A stretch of 64,000 bases of DNA from Gracilimonas sp. (GTDB lineage Bacteria > Bacteroidota > Rhodothermia > Balneolales > Balneolaceae). Of the stretch, positions 3,128 through 21,254 are shown piece after piece (positions within the stretch are counted from its first letter, which is position 1; the number at the start of each line of letters is the position of its first letter). The notes beneath the pieces are model-generated. The model searched no databases and was not told where the DNA came from. It saw only the letters and a program-made list of their open reading frames with translations. Position numbers and translations under genes: made by a program. The stretch spans positions 62,001 through 126,000 of the forward strand of contig NZ_JAEPPI010000003.1 of NCBI RefSeq assembly GCF_017641085.1, read 5' to 3'.

Positions 3128-6100
3128 AATAATTAGTACATCTACCTGCAGAGTTAAAACACCAAACGGTAAAGGCACAGGAGTATTATTTAAAGTTGAT
3201 CATTCTGATCAATCTTATTTATTGACAGCTAAACATTGTTTGCTTGGTGCATCTCTAAGTGAAGCATTGGATATAAATGATGTGCAATTAACTACTTTTG
3301 ATCATTCAACATTATCTCTGAATGAAACTTGTGAAATTTATTATCCTGATGATTTAGATATAGCTCTTATAAAATTATATGCACAGCCAGAAATTCCAGC
3401 TTTGGGATTGCAACTTATAAACACGCATTATTTTAATGGGAAGTGTTCTTTCAAAGGCTATCCCAAAGCATATAATAATATCGAACAGATTGGGCTGAAT
3501 GCAGAATATTCAGAAAACAATATACTAACTGTAAACACACCTCTATCCACTTTTGAAAGTGATCCGCTTTATAATGTGAAAGGATTTTCAGGGAGTGGCG
3601 TATTTTGCCATGATGGAGAAAATGTTTATTTGTCCGGCATCGTCACTAAGTATCTTGGAACATTTCAACGATTTCGTGTGGTTGACCTTTCCTTTTTGAA
3701 GAATGTTGAACATCTGGAAAAAGTAAATACGGATATTTTTTCTTCGCTTCCCGAAAATAAGGCCATCCAGAAGGACTTAGAAAAAATTACTGCCAAAAGT
3801 GAGAGAAACCTGGATTCAATAAAATCACTATTAGCTAATAAATATCATGTGGAACGTGATGAGATTAAAAAAGAGTTTAAAGGAAAAATTCAAAAGTTTG
3901 ATGCCGTTGTAATAACCGGAAAAGCTGGAGTTGGTAAATCAGCTTTTGCAAAATCAATTTTAAAAGACCTATCTGCAGATCAGAAATATAATCCTATTGT
4001 TTTCAAAGCGGAAGAATTTGCTGTTTCATCATTAGATATCGTGTTTGATTATCTGGAAAATAACTTAGAAGCAGTACTAAAGGAGGTAGGAAGAGAACAG
4101 CAGTTGGTGATACTAATTGATAGCGCTGAAAAATTAATAGAGGTAGAAAATTATCATGCTCTGAAAGAATTCATTGGTGTAGTTAAAAAGCTTAAGGGTG
4201 TAAAGCTAATTATTTCGTGTCGTACGTATGCGTATCAGCAATTATTATATGACTTACACAATTACTTGCCTGCCTACAGAAGCATTGAAGTAAAGCGTTT
4301 CAGTAAAGAGGAATTAAAAAATGTGGCGACTGTTTTTCCCAAGATTGAGCCTTTGATTAATGAATCAAGGCTGAGTAAGATTTTGAGCCGTGCTTTTTAT
4401 CTAAATTTGGCTGCATCTCATGCAGAGCAATTTCTGGAAGGAGGAAACCTCACAGAACCTGAGTTTAAAAGAATTATATGGGATGAAATAATATCTAAGA
4501 GATCCCAAGAGCGAGCCGCAATATTTGAGAAAATTGCTGTTGACCGTGCTATTAGTATGAAGCAGTTTATAAATGTTGAAGATGTTGACCAAAGTATCCT
4601 GGAGGATTTGAAAAAGGATGAGATTATTGAAGCTGAAGAGCAGTTACAAGAATCTTATAGGGCTACACATGATATCTATGAGGATATAGCTTTAGTACGG
4701 CATATAGAACGAGTATTCCAAAGGAAAAGATCTAAGATTGAATTTTTTGAAACGCTTGGAGGAAAGCAGCCAGCTATAAGAAGAGCTTTTCGGCTTTGGT
4801 TAATTGAATGCTTGGAAATCAATCCAGAAAGGCTTTCTGTATTGATAGAAGAAGTGATTAATAATGAAGAATTAGGGTCATTCTGGAAAGATGAGGTGTT
4901 AGTCTCAATTCTAAGATCAAACTATAGCGAGAGGTTCTTAAGAGATTACAATAAAACTGTTTCTGAGAATTCATTTCAACTTTTATTAGAACTAATGCAG
5001 CTTTTAAGAACTGCTTGTCAAGTACCAAATGAAGAGCTTTCAAGAATGGTAGCAGAGGCAGATATAGTTGATGGGGAAGCATCGGCTTTTCTTAAACCTG
5101 ATGGATTTGGGTGGACAGTAATAATAGAATATATAAGAGATAACATTGATAGTCTTTCAGGCCATGTAAAAGTTATACTTGACCTAATTATTAAGGACTG
5201 GTCGAATAAATTAAGTTGGAGTGAGCCGCTCCCAAGAGAGGCAGAAGCGGTACGAGATATTTTAGTGCACTATATAAACTGTTTGAAAAAGTCAGTTAGT
5301 GAAGAAACTGACTTTCGCTTGTCTGATAAACATCTCGAGGGCATGGTCAAGTTATTAGTACGTATAACAAAGGTTTCAAAACAACCATTGGCAGAATTGA
5401 TTAATGAATCGCTTTCATATCAACCCAAAAGGTTTGAAGAGCGCCAATTAAGAAGTTTGTACGATGAAATAACCAAGGTATGTCTATCAGGTATAAATTG
5501 TAGAAGTGTTTGCCAAGAATTACCTGATTTGGTTATTAGAATGGCTAAAAAAAATTGGTTAATAACAGAATCAGAGGAAGAAATATGGGGTAGTACTTTT
5601 GATATTGAAACGGATTTCGGAATTACAAGTGCTCATGAATTCTCCTATTTCCCCGCAAATATGTACAAAACCCCAGTACGGTTTTTACTATGGTTTCACC
5701 CCTGGAAAGCTCTAAATTTTATTGTGGAACTCATAAATCATGCTACAAATTCGTACGCCGAAAGTGAGAGAGGAAAAAGGAGCAATATAAAAGAAGTAAC
5801 TATTACTAGTCTTCAAGGAGTTGAGTCGAAACAGTTAGGTAATGAAGTGATTTGGGGCATGTATCGGGGTTTTGTTGAATCAGTACCCTATTTAATTACA
5901 AGCGTATTGATGGCCTTAGAAGAGTGGCTTCTAGGCTTGTGTGACCCCCAAAGTAAAATACCTAATAAAGAATTAACTAAAATATTCGAGTATTTATTAA
6001 CAAACTCTGAGAGTGTGGCATTGACAGCAGTACTTGCGTCTGTCTCAATATCTAATCCTGAGAAAATAGGGCGTAGTGCTTTACCTATTATTAGAGTTAA

Positions 6101-8125: not shown

Positions 8126-8229
8126 AATACTCTTCAGGTAATGACGATCTTAGTTCACATCTATTTGCTAAGAGGATGCCGTAAACTGTCACCTCTTTTT
8201 AATATATTGTTGGAAACAATCAAACACAC

Positions 8230-9219
8230 ATGGCCGCAGCAGAAAAAATAAAACACCTAATCAGGAGCTTTGCTGAGAATGATGAGGCTCAGTTCTACTC
8301 TATTGCTATGCAAATAGCAGCATCTGAAGCTAGAAAAGGACATACCAATGTTGCCAATGAATTAAAAAAATTGGTTGAAGAGGCAAAATCTGAACGGAGC
8401 TCTTCTGCTGTTACCAATGTTTTACAGCATCCTGTTTCCAAAGAGCTAAGAGAGATCCAGTACCTGGTTGAACTTGTTCCTCATACCTATAAATTAAGTG
8501 ATATGGTGCTTTCTACTCCCGTTCGGGAGACACTTGAAAGAATCATTAAAGAGCAGCAGAAATTTAATGAGCTCCGTCAATTCAATTTAATGCCCCGCCG
8601 GAAATTATTGTTAACTGGTCCGCCAGGTTGTGGCAAAACGATGACAGCTGAAGCACTTGCGTCTGAGTTAGCGATTCCCCTATTCTCTATACGTCTTGAT
8701 GGCCTGATAAGTCGTTACATGGGGGAGACGATTGCGAAGCTAAAACAGATCTTCAATGTAATGAACACAAAGCGAGGGGTTTATCTTTTTGATGAATTTG
8801 ACAGCATTGGTTCTAATCGCTCTTATGGGAATGATGTTGGAGAAATTAAACGGGTACTCAACAGTTTTTTGCTGTTTATTGAGAAGGATCGTTCCAATAG
8901 TTTGATTATTGCCGCTACAAACATGCAGGAATCATTGGATAAAGCATTATTTAGAAGGTTTGATGATATTATAGAATACCCGTTGCCCGATAAGGAAGAG
9001 ATTGCGACCCTGTTGCAAAGAAATTTGAAGCAACATAAAGGTGTTAGCAAAAAAGAATTTCATGCACTTGCTGAAAAAGCGGTGGGGCTAAATTTTGCAG
9101 ATATTACGAGAGCTTGTGATGAAGCTTTGAAAGAGATGATTATTTCTGGGAATGATAAAATTTCTACCGATTTAATAGAACAATTTATCGAGAGACGGCA
9201 AACCTTGAACCAATCTTAA
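8230..9219 (+). CDS. ietA: AAA ATPase of an IetAS-like defence pair
   Basis: This 329-aa AAA+ ATPase has an N-terminal helical region (~1-115), Walker A GPPGCGKT (130-137), Walker B VYLFDEFD (184-191) and a downstream FRRFDD segment typical of the arginine-finger region of FtsH/spastin-type AAA modules. It is followed after 3 bp by a subtilisin-like protease gene. An AAA ATPase paired with an S8 protease is the IetAS system reported to protect against phages. By that analogy the ATPase would control or feed the protease; the mechanism is not established. The symbol rests on this two-gene architecture, so a related but distinct ATPase-subtilase pair is possible. Confidence 0.75.
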   Translation: MAAAEKIKHLIRSFAENDEAQFYSIAMQIAASEARKGHTNVANELKKLVEEAKSERSSSAVTNVLQHPVSKELREIQYLVELVPHTYKLSDMVLSTPVRETLERIIKEQQKFNELRQFNLMPRRKLLLTGPPGCGKTMTAEALASELAIPLFSIRLDGLISRYMGETIAKLKQIFNVMNTKRGVYLFDEFDSIGSNRSYGNDVGEIKRVLNSFLLFIEKDRSNSLIIAATNMQESLDKALFRRFDDIIEYPLPDKEEIATLLQRNLKQHKGVSKKEFHALAEKAVGLNFADITRACDEALKEMIISGNDKISTDLIEQFIERRQTLNQS

Positions 9220-9222
9220 TGC

Positions 9223-11718
9223 ATGGCTGATGAACAGTATCCACATCTAAAATTTGATCGTTTTTTTAAATCGGGGAATTTTGAAAACCCAAGGGGTGGT
9301 GGCTCCAAGTTTGAGGTTGTTCAAAGAATAAGAAGATCACATGGAGCTTCTGTAAAAAGACAGTTTTCAAGTGCTGTAAATGAATTTGAGAACCGAGCTA
9401 AAGAAGAAAATGAAGATCTATTCAATGAAGATATAATTTATCTTGAGTTTGAATCAGAACCCGGCTATCACTTTAAAACAGACAGTTTTGACAATGGACA
9501 TGGTTATTACAAGCTGAGCTACAGCAGGGTTGAAAAAAGGTTAATAGAGGGGGAAGTCAAAGAAGTCCAAAAGATTGGTATCTACATCAATAAAAAAGGC
9601 GTTTCAAAATTTTTAGATAAAATTGAACAATTTCTTGATCCCGAAAAAGATACTAAAAAAGGTAACCCAAGGAACCAACCTCTTCTTGCAAACATAGCAT
9701 CTATCAGGGCTGCTACACTTGAATGTTTTTGGACCGAACCGACCGATGCTTTTTCAGAGGAAGGGGAAAATGAATGGTGGGAAATTTGGCTAAGAAGGGA
9801 TGAGATTAATTCGGATGAAAAAGAGGACGAGCATGTCAGGGAGCTTTTGCAAGAAGTTGGTGCTGATGTAGGTAATAGAAGAATTCTTTTTCCAGAGCAT
9901 ATCATAATCTTAGCGAAAGGTACCCCCGATCAACTTTCTCGCTCTTTGCTTTATAGTGATAAATTATCTGAGCTAAGAAAGCCAAAGGAAACATCTGAGT
10001 TTTTTTTAAGAGAAGAACTGGAAGACTCAGATGATTGGCTTGAGAATTTACAGAATCGAATAGAAGATCATACAATTGAAGAAAGTGTTTTTGTATGTGT
10101 ATTAGATAGCGGGGTAAATCGCGGGCATCCACTTCTCTCTCCTTTTCTTTCAGATCGCGATATGCATAAAATAAAACCTGATTGGGATGATGCGGACTCT
10201 TATCGAAGAGGACATGGGACTCAAATGGCTGGGAATGTACTATATGGTGACCTTACGGAACATTTAACTGGTGATGAGCAGATACAGCTTTTCCACAAAC
10301 TGGAATCTGTTAAAATCATTAATCCGGATGATCCTAACGATGAGAAGTTATATGGAGCGATAACTATTGAAGCGGCAAATCAACCGGTCGTACTAAATCC
10401 AGATAATAATCGAGTTTATTGTATGGCCGTTTCTTCCAGTGATCATGATCATGAGGGAGAGCCTTCATCTTGGTCATCTGCAGTTGATCAAATAGTTTAT
10501 GGCGATGTGGAAGAACCAAATGAGAAGTCGCTTTTTTTAGTTTCTGCAGGAAATGCATGGCTTGATAACTATCGAGACTATCCTGCTAAGAATGAGCAAA
10601 CTCTTGTCAATGACCCTTCCCAGGCATTTAATGCTTTAACTATTGCAGCTTATACAGAAAAGGGTCAAATAAATCCTGAAAAATACCCGGACAGTTTTCC
10701 GCTTGCAACCAGAGGTAGCCTTTCTCCATTTAGTACAACCGGCGTTCAATTAGATAAAAAATGGGCAAACAAACCAGATGTGGTCTTTGAAGGAGGTAAT
10801 CTAGGGATAGGTCCACAAGGATTGATAGAACCAGATTCATTGAAATTGCTCTCGGTTGGAGCTGATTTTCAGCGGCATCCATTTTCTGACAATCATGCAA
10901 CAAGTGCTGCAACTGCTCTAGCTTCAAAGTTTGCTGCGGAGCTATATTCTGAATACCGTGATTATTGGCCAGAAACCATTCGTGGTTTAATTATCCATTC
11001 GGCTGAATGGAATGATGTCATGAAAAGAGGGAATGGTCTTAATAACGTTGCAGAAAAAAGAAAGTTGATTCGAACATATGGCTATGGTGTACCAGATTTA
11101 GCAAGAGCACGATATAGTGCAAGTGATCGCCTGACATTAATATCGGAAAGGACTATTCAGCCTTATATTAGAGAGGGATCAAATGACCCAAAAATTAATC
11201 AATATCATTTATATGAATTACCTTGGCCAGTAGAAGCTTTGAATAGCTTATTCGATGAAGAGATTCGTGTTAATGTCACCCTTTCTTACTTCATTGAGCC
11301 AAATCCAGGAAAAAAAGAATATAGCCAGAGTTATTCTTATCAATCAGTTGGGCTACGATTCAAAATGTGCAGGCCAAACGAAACTGATGAAGAGTTTGCA
11401 GCAAGAGTAAATAAATTAGCGAGAGATGATGATTACGAATCTGATGGTTCAGAAGATTGGAAACTTGGTCCTGATGTAAGAGATAAAGGTTCGATTCATA
11501 GGGATTGGTTAATGACTACAGGGCCGGAACTTGCCACAAAGAACAAAATTGCGGTGTTCCCTGTCGGAGGATGGTGGAAAACACGGAAAAAACTGGAAAG
11601 ATATGGTGAATCAGTTCGTTACAGCTTGATTGTGAGTATTGATGCACCAAATCAAGATATTGGTGTTGATTTGTATACTCCTGTTCAAAATCTCATAAGT
11701 GTTGATATTGAAACGTAG
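9223..11718 (+). CDS. ietS: Subtilisin-like S8 protease of an IetAS-like pair
   Basis: This 831-aa protein is unusually long for a subtilase. The peptidase S8 triad is visible: Asp295 in VCVLDSGVN, His331 in RGHGTQMAG and Ser561 in HATSAATALAS, with the oxyanion Asn in SAGNAW between His and Ser. The ~280-residue N-terminal region is acidic and the ~220-residue C-terminal region is of unknown fold. There is no signal peptide, so it should act inside the cell, as expected for a defence protease. The gene begins 3 bp after the AAA ATPase stop, so the two are surely co-transcribed. The substrate is unknown. Confidence 0.78.
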   Translation: MADEQYPHLKFDRFFKSGNFENPRGGGSKFEVVQRIRRSHGASVKRQFSSAVNEFENRAKEENEDLFNEDIIYLEFESEPGYHFKTDSFDNGHGYYKLSYSRVEKRLIEGEVKEVQKIGIYINKKGVSKFLDKIEQFLDPEKDTKKGNPRNQPLLANIASIRAATLECFWTEPTDAFSEEGENEWWEIWLRRDEINSDEKEDEHVRELLQEVGADVGNRRILFPEHIIILAKGTPDQLSRSLLYSDKLSELRKPKETSEFFLREELEDSDDWLENLQNRIEDHTIEESVFVCVLDSGVNRGHPLLSPFLSDRDMHKIKPDWDDADSYRRGHGTQMAGNVLYGDLTEHLTGDEQIQLFHKLESVKIINPDDPNDEKLYGAITIEAANQPVVLNPDNNRVYCMAVSSSDHDHEGEPSSWSSAVDQIVYGDVEEPNEKSLFLVSAGNAWLDNYRDYPAKNEQTLVNDPSQAFNALTIAAYTEKGQINPEKYPDSFPLATRGSLSPFSTTGVQLDKKWANKPDVVFEGGNLGIGPQGLIEPDSLKLLSVGADFQRHPFSDNHATSAATALASKFAAELYSEYRDYWPETIRGLIIHSAEWNDVMKRGNGLNNVAEKRKLIRTYGYGVPDLARARYSASDRLTLISERTIQPYIREGSNDPKINQYHLYELPWPVEALNSLFDEEIRVNVTLSYFIEPNPGKKEYSQSYSYQSVGLRFKMCRPNETDEEFAARVNKLARDDDYESDGSEDWKLGPDVRDKGSIHRDWLMTTGPELATKNKIAVFPVGGWWKTRKKLERYGESVRYSLIVSIDAPNQDIGVDLYTPVQNLISVDIET

Positions 11719-11760: not shown

Positions 11761-11895
11761 AGGGGCCAAGCTGGGGGCCATGCTACAGAAATAAGCCTTA
11801 ATGTTGCTGGAAGGCCGGTTTTTATAATTTCGAGAGGGGCCATGCTTTATTCCAATTTCTAACTGATATTTGGATTATTCGGTTACCTATTACTT
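11761..11895 (+). repeat. Direct repeat, copy A (left of abiE)
   Basis: This ~130-bp stretch aligns with 14204-14330 with scattered mismatches and small gaps. The best-kept part is a 24-bp block starting TTTCGAGAGGGGCCATGC. Each copy begins with GGGGCCAAGCT-type units; read in frame these give GAKLGAML here and GAKLGALL in copy B, each soon followed by a stop. The repeats therefore look like the decayed 3' end and flank of one gene family. The remaining intergenic DNA up to 11994 shows no gene. Confidence 0.75.
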
Positions 11896-11994
11896 ATAAG
11901 TGTATTTGCAAAACGTTTATTTAGGATAAGTAATTAGGTGAATATTAGAGTTCTTCTAAGTTGCTATTCATTGAATTTGTTCATTAATTATGAG

Positions 11995-12031
11995 TGTTCA
12001 CGATTCGTGAACAAGATAAAAAAGTGAACAA
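11995..12031 (+). promoter_or_regulatory. abiE operator, left member of 37-bp inverted repeat
   Basis: Immediately before the abiEi start lies the palindrome TGTTCACGATTCGTGAACA (11995-12013), symmetric except at its centre, followed by another GTGAACA half-site. A further TTGTTCA half-site lies just upstream. AbiEi antitoxins of known systems repress their own operon by binding inverted repeats in this position, so this is the likely operator. The whole 37 bp recurs as an exact reverse complement at 13871-13907. Confidence 0.8.
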
Positions 12032-13870: not shown

Positions 13871-13907
13871 TTGTTCACTTTTTTATCTTGTTCACGAATC
13901 GTGAACA
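13871..13907 (-). repeat. Inverted copy of the abiE operator
   Basis: These 37 bp are the exact reverse complement of 11995-12031, and weaker similarity (TAATTA..TGAACA) continues for about 20 bp outward. The copy contains the same palindrome and half-site. It starts 26 bp after the abiEii stop and faces inward, so the toxin-antitoxin pair sits between two operator arrays. No minus-strand gene that it could control is visible. Confidence 0.85.
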
Positions 13908-14110
13908 TTAGTAATTAGTGAACATATTGTATTACACCCACCTTTATTTTCTTCAAAACAGTTAGAAATCATAAAAAACGTTTAGAATTGGGGCTTTTTT
14001 GTCAAAAACGTTTATATCTGAGTGAATTTTTTAATAACGGTTAGGGAGAGCATAGTTTTCTACAAATGGTGGCTTTTTTCAGTACCTGAATGGAGAATAA
14101 CTGAGAAAAC

Positions 14111-14203: not shown

Positions 14204-14330
14204 TGGGGCCAAGCTAGGGGCCTTGCTAAAGAAAAAGCTTTAATCTAGCTGAAAGACGGTTTTTCTATTTTCGAGAGGGGCCATGCTTTATTCCAAAATC
14301 TAAAATATTTGGATCATTAGGTTTTTAATT
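14204..14330 (+). repeat. Direct repeat, copy B (right of abiE)
   Basis: This is the partner of 11761-11895 in the same orientation, so together the copies bracket the abiE operon at ~2.4 kb spacing. Copy B is joined upstream to the 12-bp tandem repeats; copy A lacks them. The rest of the 813-bp gap 13845-14657 contains AT-rich DNA with several AAAACGTTTA-like words but no gene. Confidence 0.75.
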
Positions 14331-15117: not shown

Positions 15118-15228
15118 AATTCTAAGGAGTTATATGAGTAAACTGGAATAAAACAGCATTCCTGATATCTCATTTATTCTAAAATAATCTACCTATTTAC
15201 GAAATAGCTCAATTCCTTTAAACTATTC
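15118..15228 (+). repeat. Direct repeat C1
   Basis: This ~111-bp stretch is about 85% identical by eye to 15631-15742, in the same orientation. The shared words include GAGTTATATGAGTAAAC and AAAACAGCATTCCTGA. Each copy contains a weak palindrome (GGAATAAA facing TTTATTCC, better preserved in the second copy). The two copies enclose the broken HTH regulator gene. Confidence 0.85.
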
Positions 15229-15245: not shown

Positions 15246-15283
15246 ATATTTGAAACTAAATTGCATATAATCGTTTCAAATAT
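15246..15283 (+). promoter_or_regulatory. Operator and -10 of the HTH regulator
   Basis: ATATTTGAAAC (15246-15256) and GTTTCAAATAT (15273-15283) form a perfect 11-bp inverted repeat. Between them lies TATAAT (15266-15271), a -10-like element. The HTH gene starts at 15292. A repressor binding this repeat would cover the promoter, as HipB-type proteins do. Confidence 0.7.
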
Positions 15284-15291
15284 GAATAACT

Positions 15292-15595
15292 ATGAAAAAT
15301 AAACGACCTATTCTGCTACCAAAATATGAGCGTGCGCTAAAGCAGGTTGGTGAACAGTTTAAGCTGGCTCGTCTCCGTCGTAAACTCAGCTATGGAGCAA
15401 GTATCGGAACGGGCCAATATCGCTAAATCAACTTTATGGCGTATTGAGAAAGGTGATCCCGGTGTTGCTATGGGAAATTATTATCAGGTCTTGATAGCAC
15501 TTAGCCTGGATAAAGATATTCTTCAACTGGCAAGTGATGATATTTTTGGAAGAAAACTTCAGGATATAGAACTAATGTCCAAGAAGAAGGGCTAA
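15292..15595 (+). pseudogene. HipB-like XRE regulator, frameshifted
   Basis: The reading frame from ATG 15292 encodes a basic N-terminus (ALKQVGEQFKLARLRRKLS) and then stops at 15424-15426. The continuation EQVSERANIAKSTLWRIEKG plus GRKLQDIEL lies one base out of frame and runs to 15595. The joined sequence is a typical HipB-like helix-turn-helix protein of ~100 aa. The break lies near 15390-15398, where one extra base (the T before ATGGAG) would explain it. No hipA-like kinase gene follows, so the partner is missing or was never there. The intact operator suggests recent decay; a sequencing error is the alternative. Confidence 0.7.
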
Positions 15596-15630: not shown

Positions 15631-15742
15631 AATTCTGTGGAGTTATATGAGTAAACCGGAATAAAACAGCATTCCTGACAGCTCATTTATTCCAAAATAA
15701 GTCTACTCACAAACAAAATAGCCCAATTCTTTTAAACTATTC
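15631..15742 (+). repeat. Direct repeat C2
   Basis: Second copy of the ~111-bp repeat at 15118-15228. It begins 35 bp after the stop of the broken regulator, while C1 begins 13 bp after the stop of the lipoprotein gene. In this copy GGAATAAA and TTTATTCC are exact complements, with GAGTA and TACTC as outer arms. Confidence 0.85.
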
Positions 15743-16046: not shown

Positions 16047-16279
16047 TGCTAAGCTGCTAAACACTGCTAAGTTTTTTAAAAGATAGGCTCGTTTATATAA
16101 AAGAAGGGATATAAGCTTTAGCAAAGATTTAAAGAAAATGCTAAGAACTGCTAAAGTGTGCTAGAAATTTTAGCGTCTCTTAGCACCTGTTAGCAGACCT
16201 TAGCAGTTAGTTATTTGTAAAGAAATGAGGATTTAATGAGTGTATGAATGGATTTTGGGTCAATCTTAGCAGTTTAGCA
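16047..16279. repeat. Palindromic iteron array (TGCTAA/TTAGCA)
   Basis: Six-base TGCTAA units occur at 16047, 16055, 16065, 16139, 16149 and (as TGCTAG) 16159; the complement TTAGCA occurs at 16180, 16190, 16200, 16266 and 16274, with TTAGCG at 16170. The central block is exact: three direct units 10 bp apart, then four inverted units 10 bp apart. All lie on one face of the helix and can also fold into a long hairpin. The array ends 28 bp from the stop of the replication-like gene and resembles an origin or protein-loading site. The AT-rich DNA upstream (15743-16046) contains no gene, only words such as CAGTAATTAACGAAA. Confidence 0.75.
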
Positions 16280-16306: not shown

Positions 16307-18634
16307 TTAAGCGCTTAATCTTCCGGCTCGTTGTTGTTCGTATTCCTTGGCCTTGGCGATGAGCTCCTGAAGCATTCCTTTCTCGTTGAGCTGGTCCACA
16401 CGAAGCACATAACAGCGCAGATTACTTTCTTTCGGCTCATCAATGGATTTGGTTAGGAAGACCTGCACGCTGTTATTCAAAAAGTAGCTGCTGTTTTGCA
16501 GTTTGGCTTCTAAGGTGTTGAGATTTGTTTGGCGGGTAACATCTGACTTCGCATCCTGAAGCGAATACCAAATTCGTTTTGGATGCAGATACAGAACTTC
16601 TCCCTGATACACTTTCCCATTGGAATCAGTGAAAGCCTCAAAAGGTTTGTAGCGAAAGTGCCGGTGATCAAGTACAAAGAATCGCCGGTTGAACTCAGAG
16701 TTAGGATCTACTTTTTGGGTAGCGTAATGCTCCAGTGTATCAAAAAACTCATGCAGGGGATTGGATTCTTTTTGTAGTGCCTCTTCCTTATGAATGGCTT
16801 CATAAATTTCAGTTTTAAGGGCTCCGAATTCATTCGACCAATGTTGTAGGTCGGGGAGAATGTAGGGTACACATTGAATACCGGCCATCACATAGCTCCA
16901 GTTGTTCACAGTTCGTCCCTGGAACCCCTGATCGGCGAGGGCTTTTTTGTTGCCATTGAGGAAGTCCATGAAGAAACCGCGCACATTTTCGTAATCTTTG
17001 AGCACCAAAGCGGTGAATTCAGAGAATCTGGGGGTTGAGCGCACGACATTAGGTATCATATCCAACTCATTTCGTTTCAAAAATTTGGAATAATTGAGCA
17101 CAATGAGTCGGGATAACACCGCCGGATCGGTGGGTTTATCGTTTCCGGTCATGACTACACAAGCTTTCATCCGGGTGTCAATGGTTTGATTATCCGTGCT
17201 CTTCTTAGCCATCGAGGTTCCAATGCGGTGATACCAGTTCAAGATCGGACTGGTTAAATCCGGAACCTGACTGTTGGTCTCATGATTACGGTAATCATCC
17301 AGAAAGAAGGGAAAGGAGGTAGGGAGCGTCATGTTTCGGATCAGTCCCTTGATGGTATTTTGCTTGGACACGGACTGACGGTTTCCATTGCGGTAGCCAA
17401 ACAATGACATGAACCAGTCCATACTGGAGCTTTTCCCGGTACCACGTTCCCCAAATTTGAACATCAGTGGAAAGGCTCCGTCCTGTTCTTTGATATCACG
17501 ACTAAATAAACAAGCAATAGCATAACCCAATGTAGCTCTCACGTTAAGTTTTCCGTTAAAAGATTCCCACATCATGAATTTTTCAGCCAGAAAACGAGCG
17601 GAGGCAACGTCATCCGTTGGCATTGAAATGATAGGAGGTTGTACCAATTCGCTTCCGGTCGGACAAACCAATAACTGCCTGCCTTTCTGAATTCTGTTTT
17701 CTTCATTGGCTGGATAAAACCGTTGCTTGTTAACATCAAAGAGTCCGTTTTCGAAAAGAAATTCTCCGGGTTTATACTCGCCCCAGCTGGTGATCATCTT
17801 CACCGTTGGGTACTCCTGATCATTGATCAGAAACTCATGGAAACGATCAAACACATCATTGTTTCCAATAAACTTCACGAAACCCTTGGACACGAGAAAA
17901 CTGGAGAACCGTGTTTTGGTTGTAAGCTCCTCAAAGGTGGCAATAGTGATGACGTCTTTATCAAGTCGATTGGTAAGCCGGAGTCGGTAACGCACTTCTT
18001 TATCGTCCTCAGTTTGTCCGGGTTGATCGATCATATGTTCGATAGCTTCCTGTACAATCACTTCACAGTCCACAATCTTGATTAGTAATTTCAGATACTC
18101 CTCACGGTCATCGGGAATATCTTTCTTATACATGAATGGATGCACATAGCAGGCTCCATCCATGTTCCTGATACAGGGAGAGATGTATGACTTTTCCTTC
18201 TCTACTAACTGGTCCTCTTTGATCTGAGTAAGTTGTTCATGCAGTTTTTCCGAAGCCTGTAAATTCTCACCAACGGCTTGTAGCTTGCGTTTTGAAGGTG
18301 GTTTCTTGCTTTGCTTGCCTTTTCGGAGCGCTTTCGGAATCCACCCGGTTTCTTTGGCAGTGCTGTAGATCGAATCGTTTAAATATTTATCGGGAAACTG
18401 TAGTTGGTAGGGGGTTAGATTTGATTCCTCCCAAAATTCATCGAAGTTCTTTGGAAGATTATTTTTGGTCTTAAAGAGCCACTCCCTGGCCAGATCTTTT
18501 CCTTCTTCGTCATATACAGCCTTGAGTGCTTTGCAAAGAATGGTTTGATCAAATTGAGCCGGGAGGTAGTAAATGGCATCTTTTAAGTCGGTAGAGTGAT
18601 GGGATTCAGTGGTTACTGGATATTCTTTTTCCAT
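16307..18634 (-). CDS. Plasmid/phage-type replication protein (PriCT + helicase-like)
   Basis: This 775-aa protein starts with a segment resembling the primase C-terminal (PriCT-2) module (ALKAVYDEEGKDLAREWLF, then FDEFWEESN). After a basic linker (~100-130) comes a central region and then a P-loop ATPase: Walker A GERGTGKSS near residue 393, Walker B FPFFLDDY and a sensor-like ACVVMTGND. This order fits the DUF927/SF3-like helicases used by plasmids, phages and satellites to start replication. It is the largest gene of the module next to the tRNA, is preceded by two small HTH genes, and ends beside the iteron array. A complete primase domain is not evident. Confidence 0.65.
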   Translation of the reverse strand: MEKEYPVTTESHHSTDLKDAIYYLPAQFDQTILCKALKAVYDEEGKDLAREWLFKTKNNLPKNFDEFWEESNLTPYQLQFPDKYLNDSIYSTAKETGWIPKALRKGKQSKKPPSKRKLQAVGENLQASEKLHEQLTQIKEDQLVEKEKSYISPCIRNMDGACYVHPFMYKKDIPDDREEYLKLLIKIVDCEVIVQEAIEHMIDQPGQTEDDKEVRYRLRLTNRLDKDVITIATFEELTTKTRFSSFLVSKGFVKFIGNNDVFDRFHEFLINDQEYPTVKMITSWGEYKPGEFLFENGLFDVNKQRFYPANEENRIQKGRQLLVCPTGSELVQPPIISMPTDDVASARFLAEKFMMWESFNGKLNVRATLGYAIACLFSRDIKEQDGAFPLMFKFGERGTGKSSSMDWFMSLFGYRNGNRQSVSKQNTIKGLIRNMTLPTSFPFFLDDYRNHETNSQVPDLTSPILNWYHRIGTSMAKKSTDNQTIDTRMKACVVMTGNDKPTDPAVLSRLIVLNYSKFLKRNELDMIPNVVRSTPRFSEFTALVLKDYENVRGFFMDFLNGNKKALADQGFQGRTVNNWSYVMAGIQCVPYILPDLQHWSNEFGALKTEIYEAIHKEEALQKESNPLHEFFDTLEHYATQKVDPNSEFNRRFFVLDHRHFRYKPFEAFTDSNGKVYQGEVLYLHPKRIWYSLQDAKSDVTRQTNLNTLEAKLQNSSYFLNNSVQVFLTKSIDEPKESNLRCYVLRVDQLNEKGMLQELIAKAKEYEQQRAGRLSA

Positions 18635-19143: not shown

Positions 19144-19398
19144 TTAATACTCTCCCAAGTTGATGAGTGAACGTTCCTGGGTTAATTGAGGTCTTTTAGC
19201 TCGACGAATACGTAATGCTTTAGCCGCGTTTTGTAAATCTTGATGAGACCAAAGTCTTCGTCCTCCGATCTTTTCCGGAACGGGGATGGATTTTGCCCGA
19301 AGGAGGTTATCCAGGTCGTAGTAGTTAACTTCCTGTTTGAGTTGTTGGGAAAGGTATTCGGCTGCTTCGCCTGATGTTAGGTAATCGTTTAGTCTCAT
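19144..19398 (-). CDS. Excisionase/AlpA-like HTH protein
   Basis: This 84-aa protein has an N-terminal helix-turn-helix (LTSGEAAEYLSQQLKQEV) followed by LLRAKSIPVPEKIGGRRLW and SHQDLQNAAK, the layout of MerR/AlpA/Xis-type DNA-binding proteins. Such proteins govern excision or early transcription in mobile elements. The gene is the first of a three-gene minus-strand run ending with the replication protein. It is short but codon-like throughout and has a clear start at 19398. Confidence 0.65.
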   Translation of the reverse strand: MRLNDYLTSGEAAEYLSQQLKQEVNYYDLDNLLRAKSIPVPEKIGGRRLWSHQDLQNAAKALRIRRAKRPQLTQERSLINLGEY

Positions 19399-21166: not shown

Positions 21167-21240
21167 GCCGTGGTAGCTCAGATGGTTAGAGCGCACGACT
21201 CATAATCGTGAGGTCGACGGTTCAATTCCGTCCCACGGTA
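21167..21240 (+). tRNA. tRNA with CAT anticodon (Met, or Ile2)
   Basis: The 74-nt cloverleaf is complete: acceptor GCCGTGG pairs with CCACGGT (G-U at the first pair), the D arm is GCTCAGATGGTTAGAGC, the anticodon stem CACGA/TCGTG holds loop CTCATAA with anticodon CAT, and the T arm is GACGGTTCAATTCCGTC. CCA is not encoded. It is not an initiator, since the anticodon stem lacks the three G-C pairs. Elongator Met and lysidine-modified Ile2 cannot be separated by eye. It marks the right border of the AT-rich island. Confidence 0.95.
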
Positions 21241-21254
21241 CAAAAAATAAATCA

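Follow-up and report, generated by a model that had tools for sequence, protein, structure and literature searches.

What function is served by a dense array of TGCTAA/TTAGCA repeats that lies directly 3' of a gene for a replication protein in the genome of the marine bacterium Gracilimonas? The array was found where the original prediction had placed it, at positions 16047-16279 of the 64,000-nucleotide stretch of DNA analysed here (the window), and consists of 13 units, 11 of which are exact. A gap of ~27 bp lies between it and the 3' terminus of the replication gene, rep, and the region is composed of the following features.

16047..16070, + strand, left iteron set, three forward units (TGCTAA) at 16047, 16055 and 16065
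16071..16138, left AT-rich spacer, 75% AT compared with a window mean of 58%, with a single isolated reverse unit (TTAGCA) at 16118
16139..16205, central palindromic set, forward units at 16139, 16149 and 16159 and reverse units at 16170, 16180, 16190 and 16200, with 10-bp steps and 11 bp over the inversion
16206..16265, right AT-rich spacer, 70% AT
16266..16279, - strand, right iteron set, two reverse units (TTAGCA) at 16266 and 16274
16307..18634, - strand, rep, encoding a 775-aa primase-helicase-like replication protein (Rep)

Start-to-start steps along the array are 8, 10, 53, 21, 10, 10, 11, 10, 10, 10, 66 and 8 bp, and the orientation inverts at ~16167. The repeat positions of the original prediction were thus confirmed, including its three TGCTAA and four TTAGC units at 10-bp intervals, except that the units at 16159 (TGCTAG) and 16170 (TTAGCG) each carry one mismatch; the "five more units" that it listed outside the central seven are present, and their number is six. 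The right set mirrors the left set, as the arms 16047-16060 and 16266-16279 are 93% complementary. The pentamers GCTAA/TTAGC are no more frequent in the whole window than expected by chance (125 versus 124), and it is their clustering that is exceptional, with 12 within 235 bp at the array, whereas counts peaked at 3-5 when the window was simulated 60 times with a first-order Markov model. Besides the overlapping TAGCA of the array itself, only poly-A was as densely clustered among pentamers of the real window. No clear switch in GC skew was seen at the array.

Twelve Rep-encoding loci were found, in Gracilimonas, Balneola-labelled and Rhodohalobacter genomes. As the original prediction had proposed to check, the array accompanies homologues of the 775-aa protein: it stands beside rep in ten of the 12 loci (L020-L026, L028, L029 and L031), and in an eleventh (L027) the contig end cuts into it, leaving the last three units visible. 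Spacings are nearly the same from locus to locus in the ten array-bearing loci while Rep identity drops from 98% to 55%; the features kept are the 10-bp steps, the 11 bp over the inversion and the distance at which the right set follows the last unit of the central set, 65-66 bp in all loci measured. The left set recurs in the close copies and in L028 and L029, with steps of 8 and 9-10 bp. Several units are degenerate in L025 and L026, where positions are largely kept, and in L022 (G025:C20) the array is intact beside a rep that has one in-frame TGA.

Homologous loci lacking the repeats had been named beforehand as evidence against the prediction, and a single one was found among the 12, namely L030, which has the most diverged Rep (50-51% identical) and no GCTAA array. 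Instead, a looser TCCGCA/TGCGGA repeat is present near its rep (seven copies versus 0.5 expected, at 3680-4241 in reverse-complemented locus coordinates), possibly a different repeat type. Repeats scattered without link to rep had been named in the same way. When 244 genomes of the class were searched for a three-unit pattern, seven were positive and all seven carry rep; one rep-less array, described below, was found in the window's own genome.

When six close copies were compared, all but one of the 78 columns in the units (77) proved invariant, as against 119 of 157 in the internal spacers and 121 of 304 in the left flank. Judged from these columns, invariant units with drifting spacers are the pattern of a protein-binding site. 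The same comparison bears on the suggestion that the array acts as RNA, in the form of a long hairpin or a terminator with which the rep transcript would end. The array does lie just past the stop codon of rep, and its central part folds well (z about -5 to -6 for the window copy), but good folding of this part is a necessary result of an inverted array. Pairing between the spacers is close to chance in most sequences (4/9 or 6/14 in the window), complementary spacers were seen in the L025/L026 pair only, and in L029 another gene and ~1 kb separate rep from the array. No terminator-like site was called at the array, and a search of Rfam with the array gave no family at gathering score. Given that complementarity between spacers is inconsistent and that homologues differ in the register that folds best, the hairpin that the original prediction had held as its alternative is disfavoured, and a function of this kind appears most improbable.

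As to which protein would occupy the units, four genes upstream or downstream of rep and the array were considered.

15292..15595, + strand, XRE-type HTH regulator gene, frameshifted here and present as an intact 108-aa ORF in L023 and L024
18690..19142, - strand, 150-aa protein of variable sequence, with relatives in L020-L026 only
19144..19398, - strand, 84-aa protein with weak HTH_17/excisionase similarity, not found in L025 or L027-L030
19530..20822, - strand, 430-aa protein with a conserved start and a fast-evolving middle, belonging to no family

When the neighbouring genes were clustered, Rep was the sole protein family that all array-bearing rep loci had in common; some of these loci lack the 84-aa HTH protein, some the 150-aa protein, some the 430-aa protein and some an integrase. 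Rep is therefore the best candidate for the protein that binds the array. The two small HTH proteins, whose binding the original prediction had proposed to test along with that of the replication protein, are disfavoured as binders, their genes being missing from several array-bearing loci.

Rep contains, in order, a Walker A motif (GERGTGKS, at 395), a Walker B motif (FPFFLDDY, at 441) and a motif-C-like sequence (VVMTGND, at ~493). All ten aligned Rep members matched phrog_1139, a DNA primase family of PHROGs, and the best structural match in BFVD was a toprim protein of a Flavobacterium phage, the others being phage primases and replication proteins. Rep may be an SF3-type helicase, as these three motifs match that type, but no Pfam family scored above its cutoff and confidence in the model is low for this domain. 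The AlphaFold model is indeed poor over the helicase core (pLDDT <50 at 386-534), so that no DNA-binding domain could be named in Rep, and a fold search of PDB with this model, of low confidence in the helicase core, gave no relative.

Relatives were also sought outside the class genomes. Plasmids and phages gave no Rep matches other than distant ones that cover the helicase region, the phylum-wide search added only two further, faint ones, and no rep relative was present among the viral contigs. No match to the array was found in the plasmid collection. Array-like patterns in six viral contigs were rejected, as none of these contigs has relatives of the rep module. In one of the viral contigs, otherwise unrelated (L072), eight TGCTAA-type units run in one direction at 8191-8376, inside a 358-aa gene beside a DnaB-like helicase gene; these are possibly a lambda-type origin with a repeat that is similar by coincidence.

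Rep and the array are part of an island of ~35 kb, with the array near its right end, and two features define the chromosomal context on this side.

15267..15281, + strand, att-like sequence ATAATCGTTTCAAAT, with ATAATCGT in common with the tRNA-Met anticodon region
21167..21241, + strand, tRNA-Met(CAT), right end of the island

A 43-bp stretch including the 5' part of the tRNA-Met gene is repeated ~35 kb leftward, at G000:C3:48110-48152, outside the window. A precise empty site was found in the sister genome G023, where the flanks are ~95% identical and overlap by exactly those 43 bp. Just inside the left end of the island lies a gene for a 373-aa protein 75% identical to the tyrosine integrase of L023. 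In L023 itself the rep module has a tRNA half at its right end, and that integrase gene comes immediately after it, as would be expected if the element were circular or in tandem. Further att-like repeats occur at 15118 and 15631, and together with the one at 15267 they suggest that the island may have been assembled in steps. A 110-bp direct repeat with TATGAGT (15118-15228 and 15631-15742) stands on either side of the HTH regulator gene and occurs in relatives as a single or double copy. A search for att pairs in the other loci, as direct repeats of 9-11 bp, returned matches at chance level only.

The defence genes of the island include those of a PrrC-associated type I restriction system, components of AbiE, and IetAS. 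An IetA/IetS-like pair is at 8230-11718, and in the type I restriction locus (L092, 11906-19011, G000:C3) a PrrC-like gene lies between the specificity and methylase subunits. An AbiEi/AbiEii-like pair is surrounded by 58-bp inverted repeats (11974-12031 and 13871-13928, 91% complementary), and outside these by direct repeats of ~100 bp (11762-11862 and 14205-14303), an arrangement suggesting a mobile cassette.

The att-like repeats near the array, at 15267 and 15631, would suit a site controlling excision or integration, in which the units are arm sites of an integrase or sites for Xis, and so would the retention of the rep-less array beside an integrase gene. However, the array occurs with differing or no local integrases and with differing small HTH genes; the integrase relative of the window's island is at the far end, ~30 kb off, and in L028 and L029 the integrase and the array are on opposite sides of rep. 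The 430-aa protein had been considered as a tyrosine integrase and was rejected, since its Pfam match was weak (E 0.28) and its low-confidence model had no PDB match; the island integrase was found at the far end instead. As the same array is found beside integrases that are unrelated or absent and beside different HTH genes, the excision-control function offered in the original prediction is disfavoured and looks quite improbable, if somewhat less so than the RNA element.

The rep-less copy in the window's own genome (L062) is at G000:C3:406.2-406.4 kb and has its units kept. In its left flank and array it shares 72-87% identity with the rep-linked copies as far as the position of the rep stop codon, past which the sequence switches to a tyrosine integrase gene. 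This element terminates in a truncated tRNA-Met half, and a type IIG restriction gene lies beside it (L062 6604-12061, G000:C3:402-408 kb). Retention of such a site where the initiator gene is missing is in keeping with a cis-acting element that would be served in trans.

The same copy could be a decoy titrating Rep, and this consideration belongs to another explanation, namely that the array is a control site bound by Rep or by a repressor of the element and acting in copy number, incompatibility, partition or transcription, with replication starting elsewhere. Iteron clusters of plasmids also serve handcuffing and incompatibility. On the other hand, the AT-rich spacers and the position directly 3' of rep look origin-like, and in the array-bearing loci the 3' flank of rep showed no other array of conserved repeats. 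A role restricted to control thus seems unlikely.

It is instead probable, at roughly 80%, that the array is the Rep-bound iteron replication origin of an integrative island, a reading drawn from comparative sequence data. Three features known from iteron origins were found here: a cluster of short repeats beside an initiator gene, adjoining AT-rich DNA, and repeats conserved together with the initiator, except in L030. The original prediction of an origin is supported by the association with rep in most loci, by the absence of the pattern from rep-less class genomes and by the conserved spacing. At such an origin Rep would bind the TGCTAA units, and the 10-bp phasing would align the bound molecules along a single face of the DNA. 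Helicase loading by the two facing groups would then proceed from either side of the inversion. Melting would probably start in the AT-rich DNA between the central and outer sets, the spacer 16071..16138 being a candidate melting region, while the outer sets would stabilise or regulate the complex. Replication would presumably follow excision of the island. More tentatively, the array may be a bacterial origin built as a rigid palindrome in phase with the helix and framed by outer sets at fixed positions, on which two groups of helicases would be loaded facing each other, a double loading as at the SF3 origins of eukaryotic viruses. Rep-less copies would use such an origin in trans through the Rep of another island; this fuller proposal is possible but doubtful.

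The array offers a compact candidate origin for integrative defence islands in Balneolaceae, and no mobile element of such kind described for this family was found in a search of the literature. Its strict geometry gives a route to studying the loading of primase-helicase initiators in opposite directions, and the array can be used as a sequence tag for rep-less relatives that may depend on the Rep of another island.

Several known systems share parts of this arrangement. The alpha protein of the integrative satellite P4 is a primase-helicase initiator acting with short iterons, as proposed here for Rep, whereas the repeat layout of the P4 origin is, to our knowledge, different. The SF3 origins of SV40 and papillomavirus have short opposed sites where two helicase assemblies form; the opposed sites are a resemblance only, and spacing, unit number and host differ. 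PLE of Vibrio cholerae is likewise an integrative satellite with its own initiator and a repeat-based origin, but that initiator is of the RepA_N type, in contrast to the primase-helicase here, and its iterons are longer, semi-palindromic repeats (PMC7145576).

A close parallel is with the pri-rep-ori module of the phage-inducible chromosomal islands (PICIs), including SaPIs, which combine site-specific integration, an integrase, accessory genes and a primase/rep gene with an origin immediately 3' of the initiator gene, where two iteron sets flank an AT-rich region (PMC6092414). Site-specific integration is indicated here by the 43-bp repeats, the empty site in G023 and the tyrosine-integrase relative at the left end, and the predicted origin likewise lies 3' of rep with AT-rich spacers, though with three iteron sets rather than two. 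The differences are the seven-unit convergent palindrome at 10-bp steps with its two outer sets, and the size of the island, ~35 kb, with restriction and abortive-infection genes. No phage-packaging or interference genes were identified among the island genes examined, and membership of the PICIs, which are also marked by phage-dependent induction, packaging and interference, is not claimed for this island. An origin directly 3' of rep is already known from the PICIs; what is new in the predicted origin is the strict convergent layout and the host lineage.
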